NCBI RefSeq assembly: GCF_018873765.1
Contig: NC_057926.1
Coordinates: 53,581,378-53,645,377 of the forward strand
Reading direction: 5' to 3'
DNA: 64,000 bases
Source of the DNA: Telopea speciosissima
Lineage: Eukaryota > Streptophyta > Magnoliopsida > Proteales > Proteaceae
In this document: positions 3,158 to 61,200 of the stretch, in pieces
Layout of the letters: every line of letters begins with the position of its first letter
Position numbering within the stretch: position 1 is the first letter of the stretch
Notes under the pieces: generated by a model
What the model was told of the DNA's origin: nothing
Seen by the model: the letters and a program-made list of their open reading frames with translations, nothing else
Databases searched by the model: none
Translations under genes and position numbers: made by a program

Positions 3158-3757
3158 TTCTTTTTAGGGGCAACCAAACAAACTACTTTCTCTTTTTGGA
3201 CAAAAGAAAAGAAATTTGCATTACTTAATTACCATGTACAAAGGGACCACTAATATGTCCAAGTGTGAAAGTGTAGAAAAAGAAGAGAACACTGTGGGAC
3301 TCTTATTTTCTCAAAGTGATGGCTCCTCTTTTGGACTTCATTCTTAAAAAAAGAAAAATAGGTGAACGAAGGGGCCCCAAAATCGTTGGACTTAAGGTGG
3401 CTCCAATGCTTCATCCAAAGTTAACATCTTTCCTATTAAATAGGGGCGAGAGGATATCTTCATTCTCTAATTCTCTACGGCCTGATTTAGTATGATTTCT
3501 ATTCCAATTCCAAGGGGATGATTTCTATTTTGGAAATTGTTCGGTGATTTTTGCACCTTTATTTTAACGAAATAGAAATCAAGTGGAATATAAATTATGA
3601 AATAGCTGAGGAGCTATTTCAGATTTTCTATTTCATGTGATTTCACTCTTGCTTTTTAATGAGCAATTGGTTAATTTGATGGGCAAAGTCGCAATTTCAA
3701 GTTCAAAATAAAGGGAAATTTAGATGTAGCTCCCCTGAGGTAAAGCCTAATTACAGA

Positions 3758-3943
3758 CAAATCATTATCCCCTGAGGTTCGCTGACCGGTATGGTTGTGC
3801 GGTTGCTCTCATGGGAGGGAGGGGGGCTGAAATGACCATTCTACCCCCTGACCGAACACACTGTTCGGGTGGGGTCCATCCCCCTTTTATTAGAGGCACT
3901 AGGGAACCATAACGGGCAGGGGAACCACAAGTGATAAAAATTC
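3758..3943. mobile_element. Mutator-type foldback MITE with 9-bp TSD
   Basis: It is flanked by direct repeats AATTACAGA at 3749-3757 and 3944-3952. The duplicate block (near 32510) has a single AATTACAGA and no insert, giving the empty site. The 186-bp insert has imperfect inverted ends (right end GTGATAAAAATTC) and half of the GAAATGACCA...CCCC core seen in related elements. A 9-bp TSD and long inverted ends point to the Mutator superfamily. It is non-coding. Confidence 0.82.
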
Positions 3944-5085
3944 AATTACAGACCCACACGTGAGTTTTGGATATTTACGCGTACCTCTCCTGCTTTCTCA
4001 AATAATTAATAAGTAAACCTGCTCTGTTGACTTGGGACTGAAAACATTAGAATTGTTCAAATGTTTGACCAAAATTCCCTTCATGTTAAAATAAACCTAT
4101 TTCTTCCATTACTTGCTCTGTGGAGCAATAACAAACCGAAAGCAGAACACCGCCGCTTCTTCTTGTTGCGACTACACCCCCGCCATTCTTGCTTTTGTGG
4201 CTATTCCTCTGCCATTCTTGCCGCTGATTTGAAACAACCTACTAATGGCTTCTGACAACCTAAAAATGTGGAGTTACTACTGAGATCAGCTACCTGCAAC
4301 CATTCTACCACTTTGCTGCCATGGTCACTGAGGTTGAGAAGCAGGTAGGTAATAGTATTGCGGAAAATAAAAACAACAAGGGGATGTCAGGGTTACAAAG
4401 GAGAGACATTTGCTCCAGCGGTGATGCTCATAGGATTTTGGCAACAAGGAATGGCGGTTTAGGGGATAGGAGGAGGTGGGGGCATGTTGCAGGGTGGCGC
4501 GGGATTACAAGGGTGGGTGATGCAGGTAGTGGTGGTGTCTGTGGTGGAGGTAGTGGTACGTGCAAGATGAATGAGAAAGGAGAATGAATGTTTTGTCTAG
4601 TTTTGTAAACTTAAACCATAGTTGGAAAATTGGGTTTTGACTAGGCCAAATCACCCGAGTTGAGTCAAAATTTTGGAAAACCTGGGGAAGAGTCGTGTAG
4701 ATTAGGTTAGGGTAAAAAATGATGAGATTTGGTCATAAATCATCTGAGTCAAATAAGACTCAATATTTTTACCCGAGTAATGATAGACTTTGCAAGTTTA
4801 GTCATTTTTTTAAAATCCATAAAATCGATTCACTTAAAAATTGAGTTGAGTAAAATAGTAAAATTTTATTCTAAAGTAGTAATAAATCCTCAATTCCTTG
4901 TCTTCCTTCTATTGTTCAATGGTATAAACTCAAAATGCATTGACATGTGATTCTTTAATTTTTTCTATATATTTTTTTTGTTTTTTAGTTACTAATTTAT
5001 ACATATTTATTGCATAAAAAATTAAAAAAAAAAGTGACTCGCCATGACTGGGTTTGACAAGGCCGAATCACCTGGTTTTTCTGAA

Positions 5086-5242: not shown

Positions 5243-5415
5243 TTTTCTGAAAGGCAAGTCGAGTAAAAAACCAGATTTTCCAACTATATATGGCTTAACC
5301 ATTTTTTTTTTTTCGTATTTTTGTTGGCTGAAACCCAAAAGAAGATAATTATGTAGTTCTCCATAAATGTTTTGCCTCCACCTATAATACAAAGTCAAAA
5401 ATACCCACCGTTTCT

Positions 5416-5603
5416 TGGACTTAACTCCTCTCAGGTTCCCTGCTCGGTCAGGTTCGTAGGTTCCTCTCATAGGGTACCGGAAATGACGACCTCACCCCCT
5501 GCCTGAACAGACTACTTGAGTGGGGTGAGGTCGTCATTTCCGCCCTCCCTATGAGAGGAACCTATGAACTTGACCGGGCAGGGAACCTGAGAGGAGAAAA
5601 ATT
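5416..5603. mobile_element. Mutator-type foldback MITE with 8-9-bp TSD
   Basis: The 188-bp element is nearly a perfect hairpin: the arm starting CTCCTCTCAGGTTCCCTGC is repeated in inverted form up to CCTGAGAGGAG. The arms meet at a palindromic core, 5479-5541. Flanks are ACCGTTTCT (5407-5415) and CCCGTTTCT (5604-5612), 8 of 9 identical. The duplicate block near 33850 has one CCGTTTCT and no insert. No coding capacity. Confidence 0.87.
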
Positions 5604-5826
5604 CCCGTTTCTCAATTCCATGTGGACACCATCTAAATCCCTCAACACTCGACAATGAGCGTGGGAAAACTCAGTCCTAAAAGGCTAAAACCATGGTTTT
5701 ATTGCATGGTATCGGATCGGGTATCAGTCACCTCCGATATGGTATTAGCATGGATCGGCTGTATCAAACAAATAAAAAAAAAAAAAAAGAATTTGTAACT
5801 GTTTTACGCTTATACATACCGTGTCA

Positions 5827-6090: not shown

Positions 6091-6152
6091 CGTGTCACCA
6101 ATAAGATAAACATGCTACCGGGATTGGCCACTAGCAAAACCATTAAACGATG

Positions 6153-6327
6153 GATCATTATCACCTCCAATTCTGTCACCCTACAATCCCTCACATAGGA
6201 GCTGAAATGACCACCTATCCACTGCCTGAACACACTGCTCAAGGTGGGGTAGGGTGGTCATTTCAGCTCCTATCCGAGGGATTGGAGGGAATTGGAGGGG
6301 TGTCAGAATTGGAGGAGATAAAAATTC
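6153..6327. mobile_element. Foldback MITE of the ~187-bp family (TSD not resolved)
   Basis: The inverted arms (from ATTATCACCTCCAATT to AATTGGAGGAGATAAAAATT) surround the core 6201-6270, with GAAATGACCACC paired to GGTGGTCATTTC. It is absent from the paralogous block near 34160-34190, where a few bases also differ, so the exact ends and TSD could not be fixed. Terminal bases GATAAAAATTC match the elements at 3758 and 10796. Confidence 0.7.
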
Positions 6328-7695: not shown

Positions 7696-8044
7696 TACGA
7701 TGGGACACAAATTCTATGAATGATGAGATCCATGTAAGGTGACACCCCACGTGGGGGAGTTGATTCCAACTCAAAATTAATAGTCACTTAAGTTCGAAGC
7801 TTAATTTGCTTGGTCTCGATTTGTATTTTTGATTTGTTGGAAATCAGAATTTTCTGCGGGTACATGCATGGTCGTGGTTTGTATCTTGATAAAGACCCTC
7901 TTTAGCATATAATAAATAAATTTACTTAATATTTTCTTTTGGGTGCAGCCAAACAGACGTACCACTCACTTGATTCATTATGTGCCCTAACCATACTCTA
8001 TCATATTAATATGATATCTATATCTATCTATCTATTATATAAAA

Positions 8045-8222
8045 GTAGGGAGAAAGTTCTCTGTCTGGACCGGAGTGTGGCCTATGCCAGCATTTCCATG
8101 AGTCTATCTCTCTCCTCCTCATTTGAAGACACCTCTGTCCCCTTGTTTTAAGGAGCTAGGGAGAGATAGACACATGGGAGTGTTGATGTAGGCCACACTC
8201 CGGGTCAGAAAACTACTTCCCA
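8045..8222. mobile_element. Foldback MITE shared by both duplicate copies
   Basis: Inverted arms GGGAGAAAGTTCTCTGTC ... and their complement near ACTTCCCAT surround GGAGTGTGGCCTA / TAGGCCACACTCC. The same element is present at about 37110-37289 in the other duplication copy, so it inserted before the duplication. The preceding (TATC)n stretch is also shared. It contains no gene. Confidence 0.7.
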
Positions 8223-8665
8223 TAAATGTATGAAGGACATTTTGAATTTTTGATATATTTTTTTCATTTGATAAAAATTCTCATCCTTTTATTAATGGAT
8301 ATATTTTAGTTTCAGTAAAATCCCTCCAAAACTTATTTTAGTTTAATTTGTTCTCAATAAAAATTTAGGGGAAGAATTGAACCGGTGAAATCGGACCGCA
8401 TTGAACCAAACTAGTTCGAATCGGGGCTTATTTGTTCGTACAAACCTGTGCAGTTGAAGTAACACAAATATCGCTGGTAGTCAGTCCATTTCCATCAGCC
8501 GACCGGTGAGAGTAAAAAGTATAGGATATGTTTGGTATTTCTTCCATCAATCATCTGGATCTACGCCAATGTTCGATTCCAGTTGTTGTCTCAATCGTCT
8601 TCTCATAAAGTTCTAACAGTCATTTCTGGAATAGAAACATGGCCCAGTCAATTTTGTATGGCAAC

Positions 8666-10654: not shown

Positions 10655-10998
10655 GTGCAGTGTGATTGAGTAAGGTGGAGATGTCCACACCTGGCAACTC
10701 AGACATCCATCAGTCCGACAACAACAAGAGTCAATGAGTTTGGATCGTTGGATGTCCGAGCTGTCAGGTGTCAATATCTCCACCTAGCACTACCGGAATT
10801 TTTATCACCTTTAATTCACTGTCCCCTCCAATTCCCTTCAATCCCTCACATAAGAGCAGAAATGACCACCCTACCCCACCTTGGGTAGTGTGTTTGGGCA
10901 ATGGATAAGGTGATCATTTCTGCTCCTATGTGAGAGATTGGAGGGAATTGGAACGGACAGAAATTGGAGGTGATAACGATTCGCACTACCGCACTGCA
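10655..10998. repeat. Hairpin repeat (family B) interrupted by a younger MITE
   Basis: The outer arms (GTGCAGTG...GGTGGAGAT...GGACATCC-type sequence, and their complements with CCACCTAGCACTACCGCACTGCAC) form a hairpin like the uninterrupted one at 42844-42987. The 3' arm is split by the element at 10796-10982, whose TSD lies within the arm. Confidence 0.75.
10796..10982. mobile_element. Mutator-type foldback MITE with perfect 9-bp TSD
   Basis: The 187-bp element starts GAATTTTTATCACC, ends GGTGATAACGATTC and is flanked by GCACTACCG on both sides (10787-10795, 10983-10991). Arms contain CCAATTCCCTTCAATCCCTC and its complement. The core 10856-10925 carries GAAATGACCACCCTACCCC and the complementary GGTGATCATTTC. 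It is inserted in hairpin family B, giving a relative age. Confidence 0.9.
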
Positions 10999-11504
10999 CA
11001 CTTATGTCATGCTCTCACCTGTAAATTAAGAAAATCTCTATCGTGTGTTCAAGGACATGATCCATGCTCCATGTAATTTGACATAAGATATTGAATTGAA
11101 TTTTACCAAAACAATAAAAAAAGATATTGAATTGAATTTTTCTTAAATAACGGTGAATGAGAATCTATTCATTTTAAGACTTCATAAGTGCACGTACAGG
11201 GATATCAAAAGGATATTTTGAAAAACATATTAAAACCGTCTAAAAATTGCAAACCTACGATGATGGATGATGGTGAAAAAGTGAAGGTCAAGATGTTCCG
11301 TTGAATGGGACCCATCTATTAATGAGCTCTAATCATCTTCTAAACGTCCACATCAAAACCAATTCGACAAATCAACAAAATTGATTGAAAGCTGGTTCAC
11401 ACAAGACTTATTAGTCAATTACTGAATCTCATAAGGCCACGCCATCCCCCTTTAAAGTCGATACTTTAAAGAGACCTTGCCCAGCTGTTATATTCTATCT
11501 GTCC
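10999..11504. other. Intergenic, no gene recognised
   Basis: AT-rich DNA with two short direct copies of an AAGATATTGAATTGAATTTT-like segment near 11088 and 11120. No exon or RNA gene recognised. Confidence 0.45.
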
Positions 11505-12638
11505 GATTTGGATCCTCTGCTGTCGCCTACCGGTGCACGGCCAGCGTGTAGCCTCACACAGGCGTGCATGGATCCCATGTGAGCCTCATTCGAACACCCT
11601 TGGCTCCTGTCCTGCAGTGGCAGGAGCTGGAGCGTCTAGCACCCCCTGCGATCACTCCACGTGGTCCTCTTTGAATCCAACGACATAATATTATTTGAAC
11701 CATTATTTTAATTCAGACCTCCCATTAACCTCTCTCACCCGCCCAGATCCCATTAAACCTGACCCGATATATCACACACGCTTTTTCCATTTATTATTGT
11801 TGGAGATTACTGTGTAAGCTTTGAAGTCACATAAGAATGTGAATCAGAGATTAAACTCAGAGAAGAGGGACCCATGTGACTGTGAATCAGAGATTAAAAC
11901 TCGAAGAATTGAAGAAGAGGACCACCACTTTCAGCAATTTCTACCTTTTTGTCGCTTTCTTGACTGAGAGAAGCAGATAGAGGAAGAAGGGCCCATTTAA
12001 ATGAAGGTTCGATGAAGGTTTTCACCGGAGTTTATTTTCTTTTGTTTCTTCAAAGAAACTGGAAACTAGCAAAACCTCAGAACCCAACCTCTTTTTCCAA
12101 TTGCTTTTCTGATCCAAAGCTGATTCAGTGCCACTATCGTTTGAATTATGTGTCGTTCGGAAAAGGAGAGAGAAGAAGAGGGGAGAGTCACACGAACTAT
12201 CGTCGTCGGTTGCCATTCGCCTTCGTCGTTTTTTACCGTTCGTCGTTCGCCGTTCAACCAGTAGAGATGGAGGTGAGAGCTCCCTAGGGTTTGTCGTTGT
12301 TTAAGCAAAACGAATAGAGGAAAAGAAGGGAAGAGAAAGACCCACTCCTTGATTTTTGTTTTCAAAAAGTGAAATACATCGGTCGGGTTTAATGGGATCT
12401 GGGCGGGTGAGAGGAATTGGGAGATCTGGATTAAAATAATGGTTCAAACAATATTATGCCGTTGGATTCAAAGAGGGCCACGTGGAGTGATCACAGGGAG
12501 GTGCTGGACACTCCAACTCCCGCCACTGTAGGATAGGAGCCATGTCCCTTGGGCAGTGGGTTTGGTGGCCTTTTCATCCCTGCCTACGTGAGGCTGCACG
12601 CCGGTGACACAGACAAGGGGAAGCAGAGGACTCCAATC
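11505..12638. mobile_element. Non-autonomous foldback Mutator-like element, ~1.13 kb
   Basis: Terminal inverted repeats of about 260 bp (11505-11765 and 12384-12638) match closely, for example GATCACTCCACGTGG and ATCCCATTAAACC in one arm and their complements in the other. Direct repeats TCTGTCC lie immediately outside both ends (11498-11504, 12639-12645). The interior (about 11766-12383) holds a doubled GAATCAGAGATTAAA-type segment (near 11841 and 11886) and ORFs of 64-99 codons (12012-12365, both strands) with no recognised domain. No transposase is seen. The long TIRs suggest a MULE or foldback element, and the interior may be captured host DNA. Confidence 0.82.
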
Positions 12639-13896: not shown

Positions 13897-15726
13897 ATGG
13901 ATGAAACATTTCACTCTGGCAACTCAAACAATGCTCCCCATGTTGCTATCCTCTCATTCCCATTCGCAAGCCACCCTATGCCTCTCTTCATGCTCGCCCG
14001 TCGCTTACTCACTGCTGCTCCGGACGTGATGTTCTCATTCTTCGGCACTGCAACATCCAATGGCCAGATCTTCAAGAACATTGACACATGCCTTGAGAAT
14101 CTAAAAGCTTATGATGTATATGATGGGATGCCAGAAAACAGTATATTCAGGGGCACACCACAAGAGGAAATGGAGCTTTTCATGGCGGTGACGCCATGGA
14201 ACTTTAAGAAGGGTATCGAGGTCGCAGTGTTGGAGAGAAGGAGGAAGATAACATGTGTGATGAGTGATGCATTCTGTTGGTTTGGTGGGGACATTGCAGA
14301 TGAGATTGGGGTTCCTTGGATAGCGGCTTCATTAGGGGGTGATTGTTCTCTCACAACTCATGTCTACACTGACCTGATCCGCTCAACCATAGGAGTTGGT
14401 CCAAATGGTAATTATAATCAACTTGATTAATTTATTTATTTTTAGGGGTTTTTTTTTTCTGAATTTCTATCCTCTTTAGTGCACGGTGCACTGTCCAGTT
14501 CACTTTTAAAGTGTATCTGACAATGGCCAAGATCGAACATGTTCTTGATTTTTATCCTATCGAGTGCAATGATAACCGTCAGATGCAGTTTAAATGTGCA
14601 CTGGATGATAGATGATAGTGCACCCCACTTAAAGAGGATGAGAATCCTTCTTTCCCTTGCTTGAGATGTACATCTTTCATTACATGAATCGACTAAACCC
14701 CATGGCAATTACAACTTTGATGGCAAGAATATGCACTCTTACCTGATAACACTGCACAGATAGATAGTGTTGGATCAATTACAAGGTTGTAATTAACGCT
14801 TTTTGTTGAATCGATCACTCTTTTAACTATGGATCTTCTTAACAAACACAGCCATCGCCGGACGGGAAGATGAAACTCTTGGTTTCATTCAAGGAATGTC
14901 GTCCGTACATATTCGAGATGTGCAAGATGGAATCATCGTAGGGAACTTGGATTCTGCGTTCCATCGCATGCTACATCGGATGGGCCAAATGTTACCACAC
15001 GCAACTGCGGTTGTAGTCAATACTTTCGAGGAATTGAACACTACGATCATCCAAGACCTCAAATCAAAGTTCAAAAAGTGCCTTTCAGTTGCACCCTTCA
15101 CACTGAATTACCCACCACTCTCTGATTCAGATACTACTGGTTGCCTTTCATGGCTGGACAAGCAGAAACCTTCTTCTGTAGTGTACATTAGCTTTGGAAC
15201 AGTAGGGGGGTTACCACCACAAGAATTTGAAGCATTAGCAGAAGGATTAGAAGAAGCTAGTGGAACACCATTTCTATGGTCTCTCAAGGATAAGCTAAAA
15301 GAACAATTACCAGAGAGTTTCCTAAACAAGACTAAGGAGAGGGGACTCATAGTCCCATGGGTTCCTCAATTGCGTGTCTTACAACACAAATCAGTAGGTG
15401 TGTTCATGACACATTGTGGATGGAATTCAGTACTAGAGACTATCTTGGCTGGGGTTCCGGTAATCGGCCGTCCAATTTTCGGAGACCATCATCTGAACGG
15501 ACGGTTTATTTCCGACGTGTGGGGGATCGGAATTCGAATTGATAATGGGGTCTTTACCAAAGATGGAGTGATCAAGGGACTAGAATTGCTTTTGTTTAAT
15601 GAAGAAGGGAAGAAAATGAGGGAGAAGGCTCAGGGCCTTCAAGAACTTGCAAAGAGGGCAATTGAAATTGATGGTAGCACTACTAGAAATTTCCAGACTC
15701 TCTTGCAATTAATATCTACTGCCTAG
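13897..15726 (+). CDS. UGT78-type flavonoid 3-O-glycosyltransferase, intact
   Basis: Two exons, 13897-14407 and 14852-15726, flank a 444-bp GT-AG intron (phase 1) and encode 461 aa, normal for UGT78. The family transfers a sugar from a UDP-sugar to the 3-hydroxyl of flavonols or anthocyanidins in the cytosol. The catalytic dyad is inferred as His26 (FPFASHPMPL) and Asp124 (CVMSDAFCWF). The PSPG box spans residues 340-383, from WVPQLRVLQH through THCGWNS to IFGDH. Its last residue is His383 (codon CAT, 15487-15489); glucosyltransferases usually have Gln here and characterised galactosyltransferases have His. The start ATG sits in the same AGCCATGGATGA context as in the two sister copies. No frame breaks were found. 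The sugar donor is inferred, not shown. Confidence 0.95.
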
Positions 15727-17088: not shown

Positions 17089-19780
17089 TTGCGTGGTGAC
17101 CAAATGGTAGAAAATTATCAATTTACCCTTACCCCACTTTTTGTAACCAAACTGTCCCAAGTAGAGCCCAAATCTCTAGGATAGCCTTGTTTAACCATTT
17201 TAAGCCCATATGTGAAATTTCACTCCAATCTGACGCCTTTTTGTCAAAATGACTGTCTTACCCCTGGCCTGGTTCTCAGTATCTGGACTGCCCGATTTGG
17301 CCCAAAATACTTTGGATGACCTTATTTGGTCATATTAAGCTTTCACGAAAAGTTTCGGACAAATCGGATAACTTTTATGAAAATGACCATTTTGCCCGTG
17401 GCATGGTTCTTGGTACCCAAGCCACCCGATGTGACCTGAAACCATTTGGATAACTTTATTTGGTCATATTGTGCTTACACATAAAATTTCATGTAATTTC
17501 GGTATCATTTGGACCCTGATCAGTGTGAAACACCATTTACGTACTTTCCTCGATATCCGTGCCATTTTTAGGCAAAATGTGACCATATCTGCCACACGGA
17601 TGGAAAGTACATGTTGAGACCTTCGCGGTGATATGTGGCGCATCAAAATCGGCCATTCGGATCAAAAGATATCAATATTTGAATGTGGACCTTTAAAATG
17701 GAATCTTTAAGAAAGAGAAAGAAAAAAAATTGACCGATCCGAGTCAGACCGGATTGACCCGACAGGATCAACCCGGCCTGACCCGACCCAGCTGGACTGT
17801 CGGCAGGGGACAAGCCCCCACCATTTAGGCTGAGCCACACATGGCCCCATGCCCACTTGGCTGAGCCACACAAGGCCCATCACCCATGCCCACCTGCCCA
17901 GCATGCCTAGGCACACGCAAGCCCAGGCTGCACAGCAAGCCTAGGCACATGCAAGCCCAGGCTGCGCAGCAAGCCTGGCCACACGCAAGCCAGCCCATCA
18001 CTCCTTATCCTAGCCATTAATGCACCAGGGGTCTTTGAGACCTTTCTTCGAACAGTTTTTCCCCTATAAATAATAGGCCATTTGGAGGGTTTAGGGACCG
18101 AGAAAACTCATGAAAAAATTATCATTGTGAAGTTCGTTCTTCCCTCTGTCCATCCATTCCAGAGACATCTCCATATCATGCTTCCATAGACATATAAAAT
18201 TCCTCAAATACCCCTTGTTCACCACTCTTGCCATTCGGGGCAAACACACTTGGAGTGGCTTTTGGTGCCTTCCGACGATAATTCCGGCCATCCAAGGATA
18301 TGTAGACTGAGCCCAAACACTTCCACGCTTCAAGGGTAGGTTTTATATATCTTTATTTAGTTTGTATGTATTTCTTTTGATTTTCTTTAGTTAAAAGAGG
18401 CTGTTTTCAGTTAAAAAATCTTCAAAAATAACACAAGAGTGGTAAATTTCTGAAAATTTTAGGGAAGATGTTCCCCACTGTGCTTGATGTCCATTAATTT
18501 TCTCAAGCTCCAAATCACGGTTTTTGTGATATTTTTGCCCCTATGAAGGATTTTGGATTATGTAAAATCTGAACCTGTGGGTGGAGATTTGGACAAAATC
18601 ATTATGACCATGTTAAATATCATGTTTTGATTAGTGGGTGTGGGCTCTGGTTTGATCCAATTGGGATCTGTGATGGAGATTTTGTATTTTTCTTTGTTTT
18701 CCCTTCTTTTTAGCATTTCAAAAAATATTAAAAATAGTATAAATGCATAAAAATTCACAAAAAAATTATGGGATACATATTTCATCAGGATTGATTTTAT
18801 GGGATCATTAATCACTGACATGAATGTTTGATCATTTTCATAGGTGTTCCTTACCATGTTAGGGATGTAGATGTCATTTTTCTATTTGTTGTGAAAATCC
18901 AAGAAAATCCGACAAAATACATTTCTAAGCATTAAATTCTGTTTTAAGTTGTTTTAGAATGCTTTCATATGCATACATGCCCACCATGAATCATAAGCAT
19001 GCATAAAAAGTCACTTCTGCCCTCAGGGGTATTTTGGTCATTTTGCGACCAAATCATATTTAGGGCCTTGGAAAGATTTCTATCACTTTATTTGCATGTT
19101 TTAACTTTCATAAGCATGTTTTAAGTATACTTTTGCATTTTCATGCATATTTGTATTTTTGCCTTAATAGGGGCATTTTGGTAATTTTACCACTTTGTAG
19201 TATTGTATATATTTTAATGATTCACATGCATGCCAGTAATCATGTTTTAATCATTTTAGTATTTAAATGTGATTTCTTGCCTTTGTACATATTTTGGTCC
19301 TCTAGGGGTATTTTCATAATTTTGGCCATTTTGGCTCTACATAATCACCTAACTTAGGGGTAGTAATTAGGATTAAAACATTAATTTTAATTAGCCTAAT
19401 TAGGTCCATAAATTTCAACAAAGATAATCAAAACACAAAAAATAAAATAGTTTAATTAGGTGCATAATACGCATAACACAACAGTATACAATAGAGTTTG
19501 GTCTAGGAAGATCGGCTGTCGGCCGGGCGGTTGCTGGGTGCCTAACACCTTCCTAGCCCGTAACTTGACACCTACCCAGAGATCTGGAGTAGACCATCCA
19601 TTGAGTCATTGGAGTTAATTAGCGCCCTTCTCTGAAGAACGGGTACCATTTGTGGGTCCTAGACTCTGATCTAGGTGGCGACTCCCTACACCATCAACAA
19701 CAATCCCCGCACCGCTCCCACACTCGGGTGCACCACGCCAGAAAGAGGTCGCGGATCGATCTTCATCCGTTGCGCCTACA
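17089..19780 (+). mobile_element. Solo-LTR-like insert (Ty3/gypsy, Tat/Ogre-like) inside LINE ORF2
   Basis: The insert interrupts LINE ORF2: joining 17083 to the bases beyond 19780 on the minus strand restores an uninterrupted frame (VTAS|RALII). Flanking CTGGC (17084-17088) and CTAGC (19781-19785) form a 5-bp TSD with one mismatch. Ends are TTGCGTGG...GCGCCTACA. Features typical of a long gypsy LTR include a TATA box, CTATAAATAATAGG, near 18064, GCCTAACACCTTCC near 19540, and GGTGGCGACTCC near 19674. At 2.69 kb with no pol domain it fits a solo LTR. Short ORFs inside are not genes. Confidence 0.8.
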
Positions 19781-36757: not shown

Positions 36758-37109
36758 TACGATGGGACACATATTCTATGAATGATGAGATCCATGTAAG
36801 GTGACACCCCCACGTGGGGGAGTTGATTCCAACTCAAAATTAATAGTCACTTAAGTTCGAAGCTTAATTTGCTTGGTCTCGATTTGTATTTTAGATTTGT
36901 TGGAAATCAGAATTTTCTGCGGGTACATATGCATGGTCGTGGTTTGTATCTTGATAAAGACCCTCTTTAGCATATAATAAATAAATTTACTTAATATTTT
37001 CTTTTGGGTGCAGCCAAACAGACGTACCACTCACTTGATTCATTATGTGCCCTAACCATACTCTATCATATTAATATGATATCTATATCTATCTATCTAT
37101 TATATAAAA

Positions 37110-37289
37110 GTAGGGAGAAAGTTCTCTGTCTGGACCGGAGTGTGGCCTATGCCAACATTTCCATGAGTCTATCTCTCTCCTCCTCATTTGAAGACACCTC
37201 TGTCCCCTTGTTTTAAGGAGCTAGGGAGAGATAGACACATGGGAGTGTTGATGTAGGCCACACTCTGGGTCATAAAACTACTTCCCATA
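37110..37289. mobile_element. Foldback MITE, second copy of the 8045-8222 element
   Basis: Same inverted arms (GGGAGAAAGTTCTCTGTC and GGAGTGTGGCCTA with complements) and same flanking (TATC)n tract as at 8045-8222. The copy arose by the segmental duplication. Confidence 0.7.
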
Positions 37290-37435
37290 AATGTATGAAT
37301 GATATTTTGAATTTTTGATATATTTTTTTCATTTGATAAAAATTCTCATCCTTTAATTAATGGATATATTTTTAGGTAAAAGGTATTATATATGGTCGTA
37401 GACATACATGATCATGTCTTCAACCTAAACATGCT

Positions 37436-37624
37436 CCAAAAGGATTCTGTCCAGCACCCTACCCAGACTGCATGTGCAGCGCCAGACTTGTTGAGACTTG
37501 AAAAGACCGCCTCACCCCTGCTCGGGCAAGGCGGTTGAGCAGGGATGAGGTGGTCTTTTCACGTCTCACTGTATCCAGTGCTGCTCATGTAGCCCAGGCA
37601 AGGTGCTGGACAGGAGCCGAGTCT
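37436..37624. mobile_element. Mutator-type foldback MITE with TSD
   Basis: The direct repeat CTAAACATGCT occurs at 37425-37435 and 37623-37633, so the insert is 187-189 bp depending on how much of the 11-bp repeat is TSD. Inverted arms start GGATTCTGTCCAGCACC and end GGTGCTGGACAGGAGCC. The central part (37499-37562) is a palindrome with AAAAGACCGCCTCACCCC and GATGAGGTGGTCTTTT, related to the core of the elements at 5416 and 10796 although the ends differ. Confidence 0.83.
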
Positions 37625-37689
37625 AAACATGCTACGAAGATTAAAAACAAGTGTTAGGGAAATGATCAATTTGGAAGACCTTTTGTAAA

Positions 37690-38470: not shown

Positions 38471-39544
38471 AAAGAGGCAGGATTAGTATGGTACTTATGC
38501 TGATTCCTATTAATACTCAGACTTCCTTCCTTTGTAAATTAAATGAAGGGATGGTTTAATATGATTCCTATTATTACTCAACTCAAGGTTCTATTCTTGA
38601 TGTTTGGGGTCGGGGAAACGGTACTGAATTTTGGTGTGCCTTAAAGACGAATGATTCTTGTAAAGCACTAAAGCCTATAGGTGAAATGAAAATGGGGAAG
38701 TTTTCTCTGTGCAAAAGCGTGGCTCCTGTGCACACCTGGGAGCCAATGGAAGAGTGTTTATGAGCATCAAGTGGGACATCTTTTGCACTTTTTTTTTTTT
38801 GTGGGGGGGGGGGGGGAGGGAGGGGCGATCATTTCACGCTCATGTGTCTGGACGCAGGATGTACACTCGTTCTTTTGGTATAATATATTCACCCATGTGA
38901 TCTAGTTATTATCTCTCTCCTCCCCTTCCGTTGTCGTACATCTGGTATATGTTTTATGAATTCCATCCAACTACCATAATCCGTGGAGATTCTCTCTTCA
39001 CTATAGGTGAAAGAAAATTCGGTCTAAAATAAAATATTTCATGTTATTCAAATAGGTCAATTTTTAGCATATGATATTCTTTCGAATGGGACCCATCTAG
39101 AAATGTGCTATATCTTCTCAACATCAGCCACATCAAAACTGGTCCGGTCCAGTTGGTTTGACCCAAATTCCTAGGACCCAATCATTAAAATCGGTGGATC
39201 AATCCAGTTGATTGATTTTTGTCTCTTAAGAAACCCCATAAATTGATACAATGGGTTTCATAAAAGCTTTATACACACCTCCTAACGTGTCAAATAATTT
39301 GTAATTTTATTTTAGAAAAATGATCTTTGAAAGTCAACGTTACCCTGTTCCTAGACACAAAGGAGTGTAAATTAAATTATTACCCCGCCCCCCATGAAAA
39401 GCTATATCTTACCCTTGTTAATTAGTTTGTTACTTCTATTGGGCTGGCCTTGAGGACCAAGATCTTCTCTTCTTCTTATGCTCATTCAGGTACAGTCATT
39501 CTATGGAAGGACATCCACCTCAACTCATCCCCTTCCAAGCACAA
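38471..39544. other. Intergenic, no gene recognised
   Basis: Mostly AT-rich. About 38705-38875 may be a foldback with CACGCTCATGTGTCTGGACGC near its right end, and contains a G run at about 38802-38815. No exon seen. Confidence 0.4.
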
Positions 39545-39730
39545 TTTGGATCCTCTACTATCAAGCTGCCTGGCAAGACCGTGATGCGCAGACACAACAA
39601 GGCAAGAAATGACCGCCTTACCCCTGCCCGAACGCCTTGCCCAAATGAAAGTAAGGTGGCCATTTCCCGCCTTACTATGTCTACGCAGCACGGTCCTGCC
39701 GGGCAGCTCAACAATAGAGGATGAGGATCC
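39545..39730. mobile_element. Foldback MITE with shared palindromic core
   Basis: It starts TTTGGATCCTCTACTATCAAG, close to the TTTGGATCCTCTGCTG at the left end of the 1.13-kb element at 11505, and ends AATAGAGGATGAGGATCC. Inner arms contain GCTGCC(T)GGCAAGACCGTG and its complement. The core 39604-39669 contains GAAATGACCGCCTTACCCC and GTAAGGTGGCCATTTC. Length is 186 bp. No clear TSD. Confidence 0.72.
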
Positions 39731-40036
39731 CTCCCAGCATGGTTTTGTAGATTTAATTGATGAGGCCTAAATGGGTATCCAACAAATTTGGAGACAAAAT
39801 TTTTGTGCTACACTACTACAAGGCTGGTAGCCAAGGAAATTGAATCTTAAAAGGTATTTTAGAAAATAATAAAACCAATGAGGGTATTAATTATAAACCC
39901 AAAGGGAAAAAGAATTATTCCATTTCCTTGGCTGTTAGCCTTGTAGTAGGAAGCGGCAAAACTTTTTCCTAACTTTGGGGTGATTTGGTTGGGGCCGTAG
40001 TAAAAATGGATTTTTGCATACGAGAGAAAGGAATAC

Positions 40037-42843: not shown

Positions 42844-42987
42844 GCAGTGCGGTAGTGCTAGGTGGGGATGCCGATACGTGGCAGCTTGGACATCCAACAG
42901 TCCGAGTTCAACATAGTCAATGAGCTCGGACCATTGGATGTCTGAGCTGCCACATGTCGGCATCTCCACCTAGCACTGCCGCACTGC
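42844..42987. repeat. Near-perfect hairpin (family B), 144 bp
   Basis: The arm GCAGTGCGGTAGTGCTAGG with GGATGCCGATACGTGGCAGC and GGACATCCAA is followed by its inverted copy ending CTAGCACTGCCGCACTGC, with a loop around CCGAGTTCAACATAGTC. It is homologous to the hairpin at 10655-10998. It is probably a MITE; a small-RNA precursor is possible but unsupported. Confidence 0.75.
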
Positions 42988-57680: not shown

Positions 57681-60502
57681 TCTTGATCCCAAATTAAACC
57701 TAGAGTTTGGAGTCAGTCTTAACTTTTACCATTTTTGCACAAAGTGGTCACCCTCAAGACTTGAACCCGAGCATTCAAACTAAGTAATTGGAATATCTAA
57801 TTTGGCCTCTTACCACCTTGTTTCATTGTAAAAGGAGGGTTTAGGCAGGTGTGGTTCCAAAAAAACGTTCAATTAAGGACTATACATATGAGTTCAAGTT
57901 CAAACTTACAATAAATGAAGACACGGAGAGAGATAAGTGGTAGGGTTGTAAAAGACAAGTTTTCTACCTACCCATTTTACTACTAATTACATAGTATCTT
58001 GGAGTCCAAGCAAATTAAGCCAACACACTGTTTTTTACTTCTGTTAAGAAGGTTAGAAGAATATCACTATCAGGCATCAATCATATCAAACAATAAACCA
58101 ATATTGAGACGATAGCTAAAGCCAGACCACCAGCTTCTGTGGGCTATGATTATCGTTTAACCTGCCTCATTGCCATCTCTATCTTTCAGTTGTGAAGCCC
58201 TTTTCAGAAGTTGTAATTTTCTTTCTTTAATTAATGTCATTAATCCCATTTCTTAATTCTGAGTCAATGCTTTTACATCATCACATGCCTTGTTGCTTTC
58301 AGACCTTACAAGCTGAAGTAATTAATTTCTCTCAAGGTTCTTATTGAAGTGAAACTCATTAGTTAATTCAAGTGAAGGAATTAGGTCCAAAAGGCAAGAA
58401 AGAAGGTTATAGGTCCGAAAGTCCTGGACAGGGACCTCCCTAAGTAGGCAATACTATGAGTTATGGAGTTCATGTCTCTCCTGATGAAAGTAAAATATAG
58501 GATTGAGTTTCTCTCCACCCATGGTGAATGGGATCACTGCAAGGCGGGAGAGGATGGGAAAGAGTATCAGGAGGGTATTTTGGAACATACAAAAACCCAA
58601 AGAAAGGTTTGTGAACCTTAAGATGATAGGTGAACCGTCCCTATGAATGGAGGGAAACTTAGTCCTAAAATATATATACACAAATTTTATAGAATCTAAT
58701 GAATAGCCTTCAAAACACACCCACAATCCATGTGATGTGTTTGGATAAGACCTGTGACATCTTTTTTCAAGGACTTTAAAGGGCAGAAGGGTTATTCAAA
58801 ATTCTTTATCCTTGTTTGTTTTAATACTGCCAAAATTGAGCCTAGAAATTTTCTACCATTGCTTCCTGTGAAGTCGTTTCATGGATGATAGCAAATCCTA
58901 TTGTGAATAATAACAATTTTTGCTGGGGACAGATGCACAACCACTAGAAAGAAATCAAACAAATAATTACACAACACGGGGGATTTATCATGGTTAGTAT
59001 GAATGCCTACATCCACCTTAGAGAAAACTCTCTAGATCACTTTCTACCTACCAAAGTGATATATCTTTTATTTGTATTTAGGGTTTTTTCCATACAGAGA
59101 ATATATAGGGAATCAAAAAACCTTAATCTCAATCAGTTATAATTATGGGAGAAAGAAAGCTAATCGATCGTGCAGCGATGTGTACCTACATCCAGACACA
59201 ACTGCGTGCGAAATGATCGGCATACACCCCTGGTCCTTTCCGCCTTTCCAAGGTGTGTGATGATCATTTCGTGCGCAGACAGTGTCAAGGCGCAGGTCCA
59301 CGCTACGCTCAACAACCGGTGGTAATCATACTCGATAATATAATTGAACCAAAACCCAATCCAATTACAAATACATACCCAATATTAATTATGTAGACCC
59401 AAGTACCCAACCCCAACGGATGTGGGATGGGGTGGGGTTAGATACCCGCAGAGGAGAGGAACCTGATTCAGTATTAATTACATCTCTATGTCTCAAAATT
59501 CTCAACACTCATTATTATTTCATCTTTAAGGGTTTAAGCTTCAAATTAAGTAAAGAAAGTCTCCGAGTATGCTGTCCAGTAGTGCAACTACTAATTTTTC
59601 ATGTGAGATTTTGTGAATCTCGTGCTCTTCCATAAACCTAACCCTCTCCCTTCTTTCTTTGCTTCTCATATTCTTGGGAATATGGGGTAGGAATCTAGAG
59701 AGAGAAAGAGAGACCATCTAAGAGTGACCAAGGAAATATTAATGGTGTACCATTTAACAGTTACAGAAAGAAGAACGAAACCGTACACTACTCATGAATG
59801 CAAAACACGGGCTCCCTTATTTAGTAAATGTGTTAATTCAATTGGTTCTTTCCACCCCCATTGGGAATCCATTGGTGTCTCAGGTCAGGTAAGGGATTAA
59901 AATCTTTTCCAATTCCTTGATCCCCAAGTGCTTGCAGTTCGAGGTTAAGAGGTTGATACCGGCCGATGGGCATGACATCTAATGGTTCAAAGTCTATTGA
60001 GTCAATTTTTTTTTTTGTTGTTTTTCTCAAATTTAGTACCATTGGATGTTGTATCTACCAAGTGTCGAGCCTAAGGATCAAGGAATTGGAGGGGATGAGT
60101 GGTAGGGATGTGGACATGTATCTATGTTGGATCTGGTCCTTCCGGTCATCTTGACTGTCTAATTACCATTGCCAGCCATGTAACTGGCCGGTTAGCAAAG
60201 TCATGTGATTTCATGTGTTCAGATGTGACTCGCCACCTATTTTGTGTATTTGTGTGTGTGTGTTTAAGAGAGGGAGGGGATTATTATATAAGACTCAACT
60301 AATTAACCAAACTCAGCTTCTTAGTAGTTTACAAATGATAATTAATTTCTCGATCACCATAGGAACCACTTTGAACTCTTCTTTATATTGAGTCAAATAG
60401 TTGACTTCCAGCACTGATCTGCTTTTAAATATACTCCTAATCTTGTTGGTTGTGTAGTCAATTATTCATTTAACCTCCACTATATATTTGAATTTTAAAG
60501 AG

Positions 60503-61009: not shown

Positions 61010-61200
61010 GGAAAAGGATCTTATCCCGTCGTGGCGGGAGCTGCACCTGTGCAGCACCACTAAACGATAAGAAAAATGGGGTAAGGTAGTCATTTCACAG
61101 GGGGTCCCACCTGGGCCCCACACCACCTCCCCCTTGTATTCAGGGTGGGTTTTGGTGCTACACAGTGCAGCTCCCGCCACAGCTGCACAAGATCCAAGTT
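61010..61200. repeat. Foldback repeat
   Basis: GTGGCGGGAGCTGCACCTGTGCAGCACCA and the inverted TGGTGCTACACAGTGCAGCTCCCGCCAC enclose GGGGTAAGGTAGTCATTTCAC, the same type of core fragment as in other foldbacks here. Probably a MITE; TSD not resolved. Confidence 0.65.

Follow-up and report, generated by a model that had tools for sequence, protein, structure and literature searches.

Foldback elements with a common palindromic core in Telopea speciosissima: probable MULE-type families of one lineage

Mutator-like elements (MULEs) have TSDs of 8–11 bp, mostly of 9 bp, and long terminal inverted repeats. The FARE foldbacks of Arabidopsis, described by Windsor and Waddell in 2000, reportedly combine modular inverted repeats with 9-bp TSDs, as is seen here, but their inverted repeats are said to be several hundred bp long, unlike those of the present elements. 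To our knowledge no core common to several families is known from FARE. Like the elements described here, FARE are plant foldbacks of the Mutator group, and they are credited with a MULE-domain transposase in a study on nematode elements (PMC3169594). The Tm1 Mutator/Foldback elements of root-knot nematodes resemble the present elements in their 9-bp TSDs, their MITE-like members and their composite inverted repeats, in which a motif recurs internally, as it does most clearly in families A and D here (PMC3169594). The short asymmetric terminal motifs of Tm1 are 7 bp long, whereas the two ends of one element differ over about 12 bp here. Tm1 is moreover a family of nematodes for which a Phantom-type MULE transposase has been identified and in which the number of repeats varies (PMC3169594), whereas we deal with plant elements of about 188 bp that fall into several families, diverged from one another but alike in the core. 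MuTAnT of Medicago truncatula is likewise a plant family of Mutator-like DNA transposons; it targets TA microsatellites (PMC4486113), whereas the TSDs found here have, as judged by eye, no single fixed sequence. In a literature text search of titles and the first parts of abstracts no description of the present foldbacks was recognised, which does not by itself show absence in print.

The window, i.e., the whole stretch of 64,000 nucleotides that was analysed (C11:53581378-53645377), had been noted in a preliminary description for five palindromic cores of about 65 bp and two half-cores. All five cores were recovered (Table 1), and each of the five sites proved to be a foldback of 176–189 bp built around a common palindromic core, which measures about 60 bp. 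A half-core was found at 3829 and a related half-motif in a different foldback; the former is part of the family F element, a sixth, degraded foldback. We grouped the elements into families A to G. Family C was encountered elsewhere in the genome among the pattern sites described below. Family F is represented by the one copy examined, family B by five and family C by seven copies.

Table 1. Foldback elements, cores and flanking repeats in the window
Feature	Position	Strand	Remarks
Family F foldback MITE	3758..3943	+	Right core half degraded; sequence and TSD; arm homology to A and D
Family F TSD AATTACAGA	3749-3757 and 3944-3952		Flanks of the 3758..3943 copy
Family D foldback MITE, 188 bp	5417..5604	+	28 copies aligned
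Family D copy, TSD	5408-5416 / 5605-5613		CCGTTTCTT / CCGTTTCTC
Family D copy, palindromic core	5480..5540	.	
Family A foldback MITE	6152..6327	+	Left arm shortened; no clear TSD
Family A copy 6152..6327, palindromic core	6204..6264	.	
Host foldback, other family (GGTGGAGATGTC...)	10655..10999	+	Interrupted by family A copy; edges by eye
Family A foldback MITE	10796..10982	-	Inserted in arm of another foldback
Family A copy 10796..10982, TSD GCACTACCG	10787-10795 and 10983-10991		Perfect, 9 bp
Family A copy 10796..10982, palindromic core	10859..10920	.	
Family E foldback MITE	37436..37624	+	9-bp TSD AAACATGCT at 37427-37435 and 37625-37633
Family E copy, palindromic core	37500..37560	.	GAAAAGACC variant
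Family B foldback MITE	39544..39731	+	TSD imperfect
Family B copy, core	39606..39666	.	Right side decayed
Family G foldback	59147..59334	+	Related, more distant core GAAATGATCGG...; ends resemble family C
Half-core motif GAAATGACTACCTTACCCC	61078..61096	-	Within a different foldback (61016-61195)

The sequence GAAATGACC or its complement occurs with six exact matches in the window, compared to 0.9 on average and never more than 4 in 50 dinucleotide shuffles. When the genome (822,943,500 bases in 1287 contigs) was searched with the palindromic-core pattern GAAATGACCRCCN{25,50}GGYGGTCATTTC, 159 sites were found versus none for the reversed control. Eight cores were then compared in pairs with 500 shuffles per pair: five from families A, B, D, and E (three consensus sequences and two window copies), a single copy of C, a single copy of G, and the degraded F. 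In this test the better of the two orientations was used, which slightly favours similarity. The real similarity was reached by none of the 500 shuffles in all 21 pairs without F. Four of the seven pairs with F were likewise reached by no shuffle, and the pairs of F with E, C, and G were reached by 6, 1, and 24 of 500. Over 19 nt the mean core identity is 0.79–0.89 across seven family comparisons, including that of A/D with C/G. Five of six core stretches fold better than every one of 200 shuffles (z −4.2 to −10); for the family F core z is −0.99 and 29 of the 200 shuffles fold equally well. Rfam gave no match at the gathering score, and an exact core half had no match in the IMG/VR viral contigs.

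TSDs, dispersed families and a nested insertion show that these elements inserted as transposons. The ends GGACTTAACTCC and GAATTTTTCTCC were used for reading the TSDs of family D. There the flanks agree best at exactly 9 bp, with an identity of 0.753 versus 0.259 for mismatched pairs; 27 of 28 copies were readable, the one copy without both ends being left out, and 17 of the 27 show at most one mismatch. Family E also has a 9-bp TSD (0.717 versus 0.267; all 20 copies readable, at most one mismatch in 10), and the flanks of its window copy match over 11 bp (CTAAACATGCT) when the last two element bases are omitted. For family A the best length was 10 bp (0.604 versus 0.261), 9 bp giving 0.449 versus 0.247; 23 of 29 copies were readable, the six without both ends being left out, and eight of the 23 have at most one mismatch. 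With the end positions left free, lengths of 8, 9, and 10 bp were alike in family A at 0.55–0.56 (26 of 31 copies, the other five being left out). The five copies of family B gave about 0.52 for 8–11 bp alike. A likely 9-bp TSD of a family C copy (locus L052), TTATTTATA, was seen by eye with one end shifted by one base.

The nested insertion is supported by a relative of the host foldback at 42844-42987, which is uninterrupted across the site where the family A copy sits in the host. Furthermore, a family D copy (L006) lies within a relative of the 8064 foldback and is flanked by eight of nine TSD bases, as read by eye. Dispersed copies were collected with whole-element searches for D, E, and G, in which the best 40 each of 1349, 702, and 164 candidates were scored. 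Full-length elements measure about 187–189 bp, and their inverted-repeat arms extend nearly to the centre, almost the whole element being inverted repeat. A consensus of 187–189 bp is too short for a transposase gene, hence the elements would be without one of their own. Since the length of the TSDs, which is clear at 9 bp in D and E, and the long inverted repeats match Mutator-like elements, we infer that the foldbacks of families A–G are MULE-type MITEs.

Other repeats are present in the window. A separate element at 11644-12498 has inverted repeats of 81 nt that are 93% complementary and 693 nt apart. The stretches 7980-8260 and 37080-37300 are near-identical by eye, each with a foldback with a GAAGACACCTCTGTCCCC loop. 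Pfam searches with 10 of the 20 listed open frames gave pieces of Myb, UDPGT (twice) and reverse transcriptase in four of the ten; as UDPGT pieces lie in the frames starting at 14827 and 35636, a larger duplication around the two near-identical stretches is possible.

The outer arms of the different groups had been taken to be unrelated. For families A, B, D, E, and F this does not hold, as their arms are linked by alignment against shuffles, by a spacer and by the spacing of repeats. Arms were aligned globally and compared with 2000 dinucleotide shuffles; the arm consensuses A1/A2, B, and above all C had been tidied by eye, a choice that the z-scores carry. The B core departs from its computed consensus at one base, whereas for E and G the computed consensus was used as it stood. 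The real score was reached by no shuffle for A–D (z 5.0–7.0), A–F (6.1–6.6), D–F (6.6–8.2), D–E2 (3.9–4.5), and E2–B (5.0–5.3). Weaker values were obtained for E1–B (3.2–3.8), A–B (2.2–3.5), D–B (1.6–3.5), D–E1 (1.6–2.7), A–E (1.3–3.0), and for F with B or E (1.2–1.9). A rerun with 500 shuffles gave 4.8–6.5 for A–D, 1.7–4.8 for D–E, and 3.0–5.5 for E–B. By the D–E2 and E2–B alignments, family E joins D to B.

The arms of C and G align with each other at z 7.7 and 9.2. What these two families have in common with B and E is the core together with some 10 bp of the inner arm: over the arms z is 0.6–3.5 (12 pairs), and one similar stretch lies 11–20 nt outside the core (0.80 versus 0.59 in shuffles). 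With A and D they have little in common beyond the core (z 0.1–2.7 in 12 pairs; 3.0 for A2–C in a separate run), so that a common descent of A/D with C/G rests on the core. Taken together, the sequence comparisons support a putative chain of descent F–D–A, D–E, and E–B, with C placed with G.

A TGCCC spacer is located at −39 or −40 in A, B, D, and E2. When an 8-mer at this place was sought in B and the two E halves jointly, 2 of 1000 shuffles did as well with A as the reference and none of 1000 with D; for single pairs an 8-mer shared at one place is not significant (A–B 76, D–B 58, and A–D 85 of 1000 shuffles). Families A, D, and F have three repeat units per arm at nearly matching spacing, whereas the sequence of the unit is specific for the family. 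CAATTC units are found at −47/−30/−20 in A2 and at −46/−30/−20 in A1, AGGTTC units at −47/−30/−22 in D1 and one further out in D2, and GGTT in F, read on the left arm only, is spaced by 17 and 8 nt, the same steps as in D. Internal repeats as strong as the real ones were present in none of 1000 shuffles for A and in one for D, compared to 27 and 273 for the two E halves, 334 for B, and 1000 for C. Six family A copies (L061, L062, L063, L066, L067, and L068) lack one repeat unit and spacer in their arms, as if these had been lost between short repeats.

In comparisons between A, B, D, and E, differences affect 0.13–0.25 of the core sites and 0.26–0.32 of the arm sites, gaps being excluded, which understates the arms. 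Of the original interpretation it is thus this part that stands: the core changes most slowly between families. From the alignments it appears that a single lineage probably diverged with its arms changing faster than its core. Accordingly, we consider it quite likely that the families are non-autonomous MULE-type foldback MITEs, one lineage in a chain of descent.

Why the core changed more slowly could have two reasons. First, it could be a cis-acting functional site, for example for binding a protein or for nucleating the hairpin, that selection on transposition maintains; second, it could be less mutable. Selection on the core does not conflict with the single diverging lineage and would supplement it; we put it forward tentatively. 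In its favour are the low divergence of the core between families and the variation within family E, where the non-CpG variability of the core stem is 0.067 versus 0.133 in the arms (p 0.0024), and where changes other than C-to-T/G-to-A were counted at 7/797 in the stem and 56/2120 in the arms (p 0.002), these counts referring to sequences, not events; for CHH transitions p is 0.31. In family D, however, stem and arms do not differ significantly overall (p 0.32 and 0.083; two classes of change 0.20 and 0.03), and CHG transitions are even more common in the stem (14/56 versus 42/475 in the arms). In addition, the loops of family C differ freely, and the families were noticed through their core, which is a source of ascertainment bias. 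Constraint and lower mutability are indistinguishable here as the ratio of core to arm variation is similar within and between families. In both D (L001-L028) and E (L089-L108), about 60% of the changes are C-to-T/G-to-A at CG or CHG sites, which suggests that these copies are methylated and silenced.

We regard it as unlikely that the half-core represents a more widespread motif of plant genomes, RAAATGACNNNNNTNCCCC, which would have got into several classes of repeats independently. This motif has eight exact matches in the window and, if one mismatch is allowed, 15, the copies in the families being counted, whereas the reversed motif has none of either; in 200 kb of sampled genome it was found seven times with one mismatch versus once for the reversed motif, four of the seven being in locus L033. 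Outside families A–F it is present in the window at 17246, 17380, 19026, 19170, 41542, 61078, 61369, and 62452, and also in L030 and L046; the sites at 17246, 19026, 41542, and 61078, which lie outside family G as well, speak for such a spread. At about 2089-2156 of L033 the half-cores GAAATGACCACCCCACCCC and GAAATGACCAGCCCACCCC are directed away from the centre of another foldback, i.e., in the orientation opposite to that in families A–G, which is also in favour. Against it, families A, B, D, and E are alike in the centre of the core beyond RAAATGACNNNNNTNCCCC.

The preliminary description had further proposed that arms are swapped around a fixed core. For this part of the interpretation we found no support, as core and arm types segregate together. 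Distances were computed among 73 copies, 71 of which have at least one other member of their family in the set. For these 71 the nearest neighbour was of the copy's own family in 70 cases by the core and in all 71 by the arms. The exception is L057 of family B, whose core is closest to the single E copy used. Core and arm relationships, whose disagreement was to be checked, therefore agree at the level of nearest neighbours (distances, not trees), close to the outcome that speaks against swapping. Over all copies core and arm distances correlate with r 0.777 (p 0.0002), a correlation that is due to the families: within families the Mantel test was null for A (0.006), B (0.095), and D (−0.025) and gave 0.52 for C (p 0.017). 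The arm units behave likewise, CAATYC being present in 57 of 58 A arms and AGGTTC in none, and AGGTTC in 56 of 56 D arms and CAATYC in none.

The copies of A, B, and C were chosen by the exact core pattern, which raises the core identity within these families; 40 of the 50 sites listed, out of 159 in total, were fetched, comprising all four B-type, all seven C-type, and 29 of the 39 A-type sites among those listed. By eye every A-type (29/29), B-type (4/4), and C-type core (7/7) had arms of its own family on at least one side; L079 (A) and L049 and L052 (C) have one recognisable full arm only. Among the copies examined none clearly joins the core of one family to the arms of another, L057 being ambiguous.

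A modular exchange, in which new arms recombined around a fixed core, would account for A and B cores that are identical at 49 of 62 sites next to arms weakly above shuffles, for the A/D and C/G cores (0.79) with arms near the shuffle level, and for the core of L057. The joint segregation in 70 of 71 copies, the intermediate position of E between D and B and the TGCCC spacer at the same distance argue against it. For families A, B, D, E, and F arm exchange is largely refuted, and as a general explanation we hold it to be very improbable. That the cores are alike by chance as low-complexity G/C palindromes, which nothing favours except the weaker core pairs involving the degraded F, is refuted by the 159 genome sites versus none for the reversed control and by the 21 F-free core pairs.

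Assuming a single diverging lineage, a MULE transposase acting in trans would bind the ends and the repeated arm units, excise the element and insert it elsewhere. Each family would then follow a source element whose arm units had changed together (CAATTC versus AGGTTC, for instance), perhaps due to a shifted binding preference of the transposase. Gene conversion between the hairpin arms is another possible cause of the concerted change of the units. The inner core, being outside that contest, would have changed more slowly, owing to a role of its own or to lower mutability. It is conceivable, though we would not expect it, that the foldbacks record a coevolution of transposase and binding sites, the three units per arm having been replaced in concert in both arms with their spacing almost kept and the central palindrome having been kept for a separate, family-independent step such as bending, end pairing or the binding of a host factor.

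The group is a real and informative set of families, and the elements are of a kind already known. What appeared as a chimera becomes a readable series of related element families, and a single lineage can comprise foldbacks whose ends would have them classed as unrelated. The repeat units, which change together, and the core and the TGCCC spacer, which do not, may give a clue to the sites that are read by the transposition machinery.
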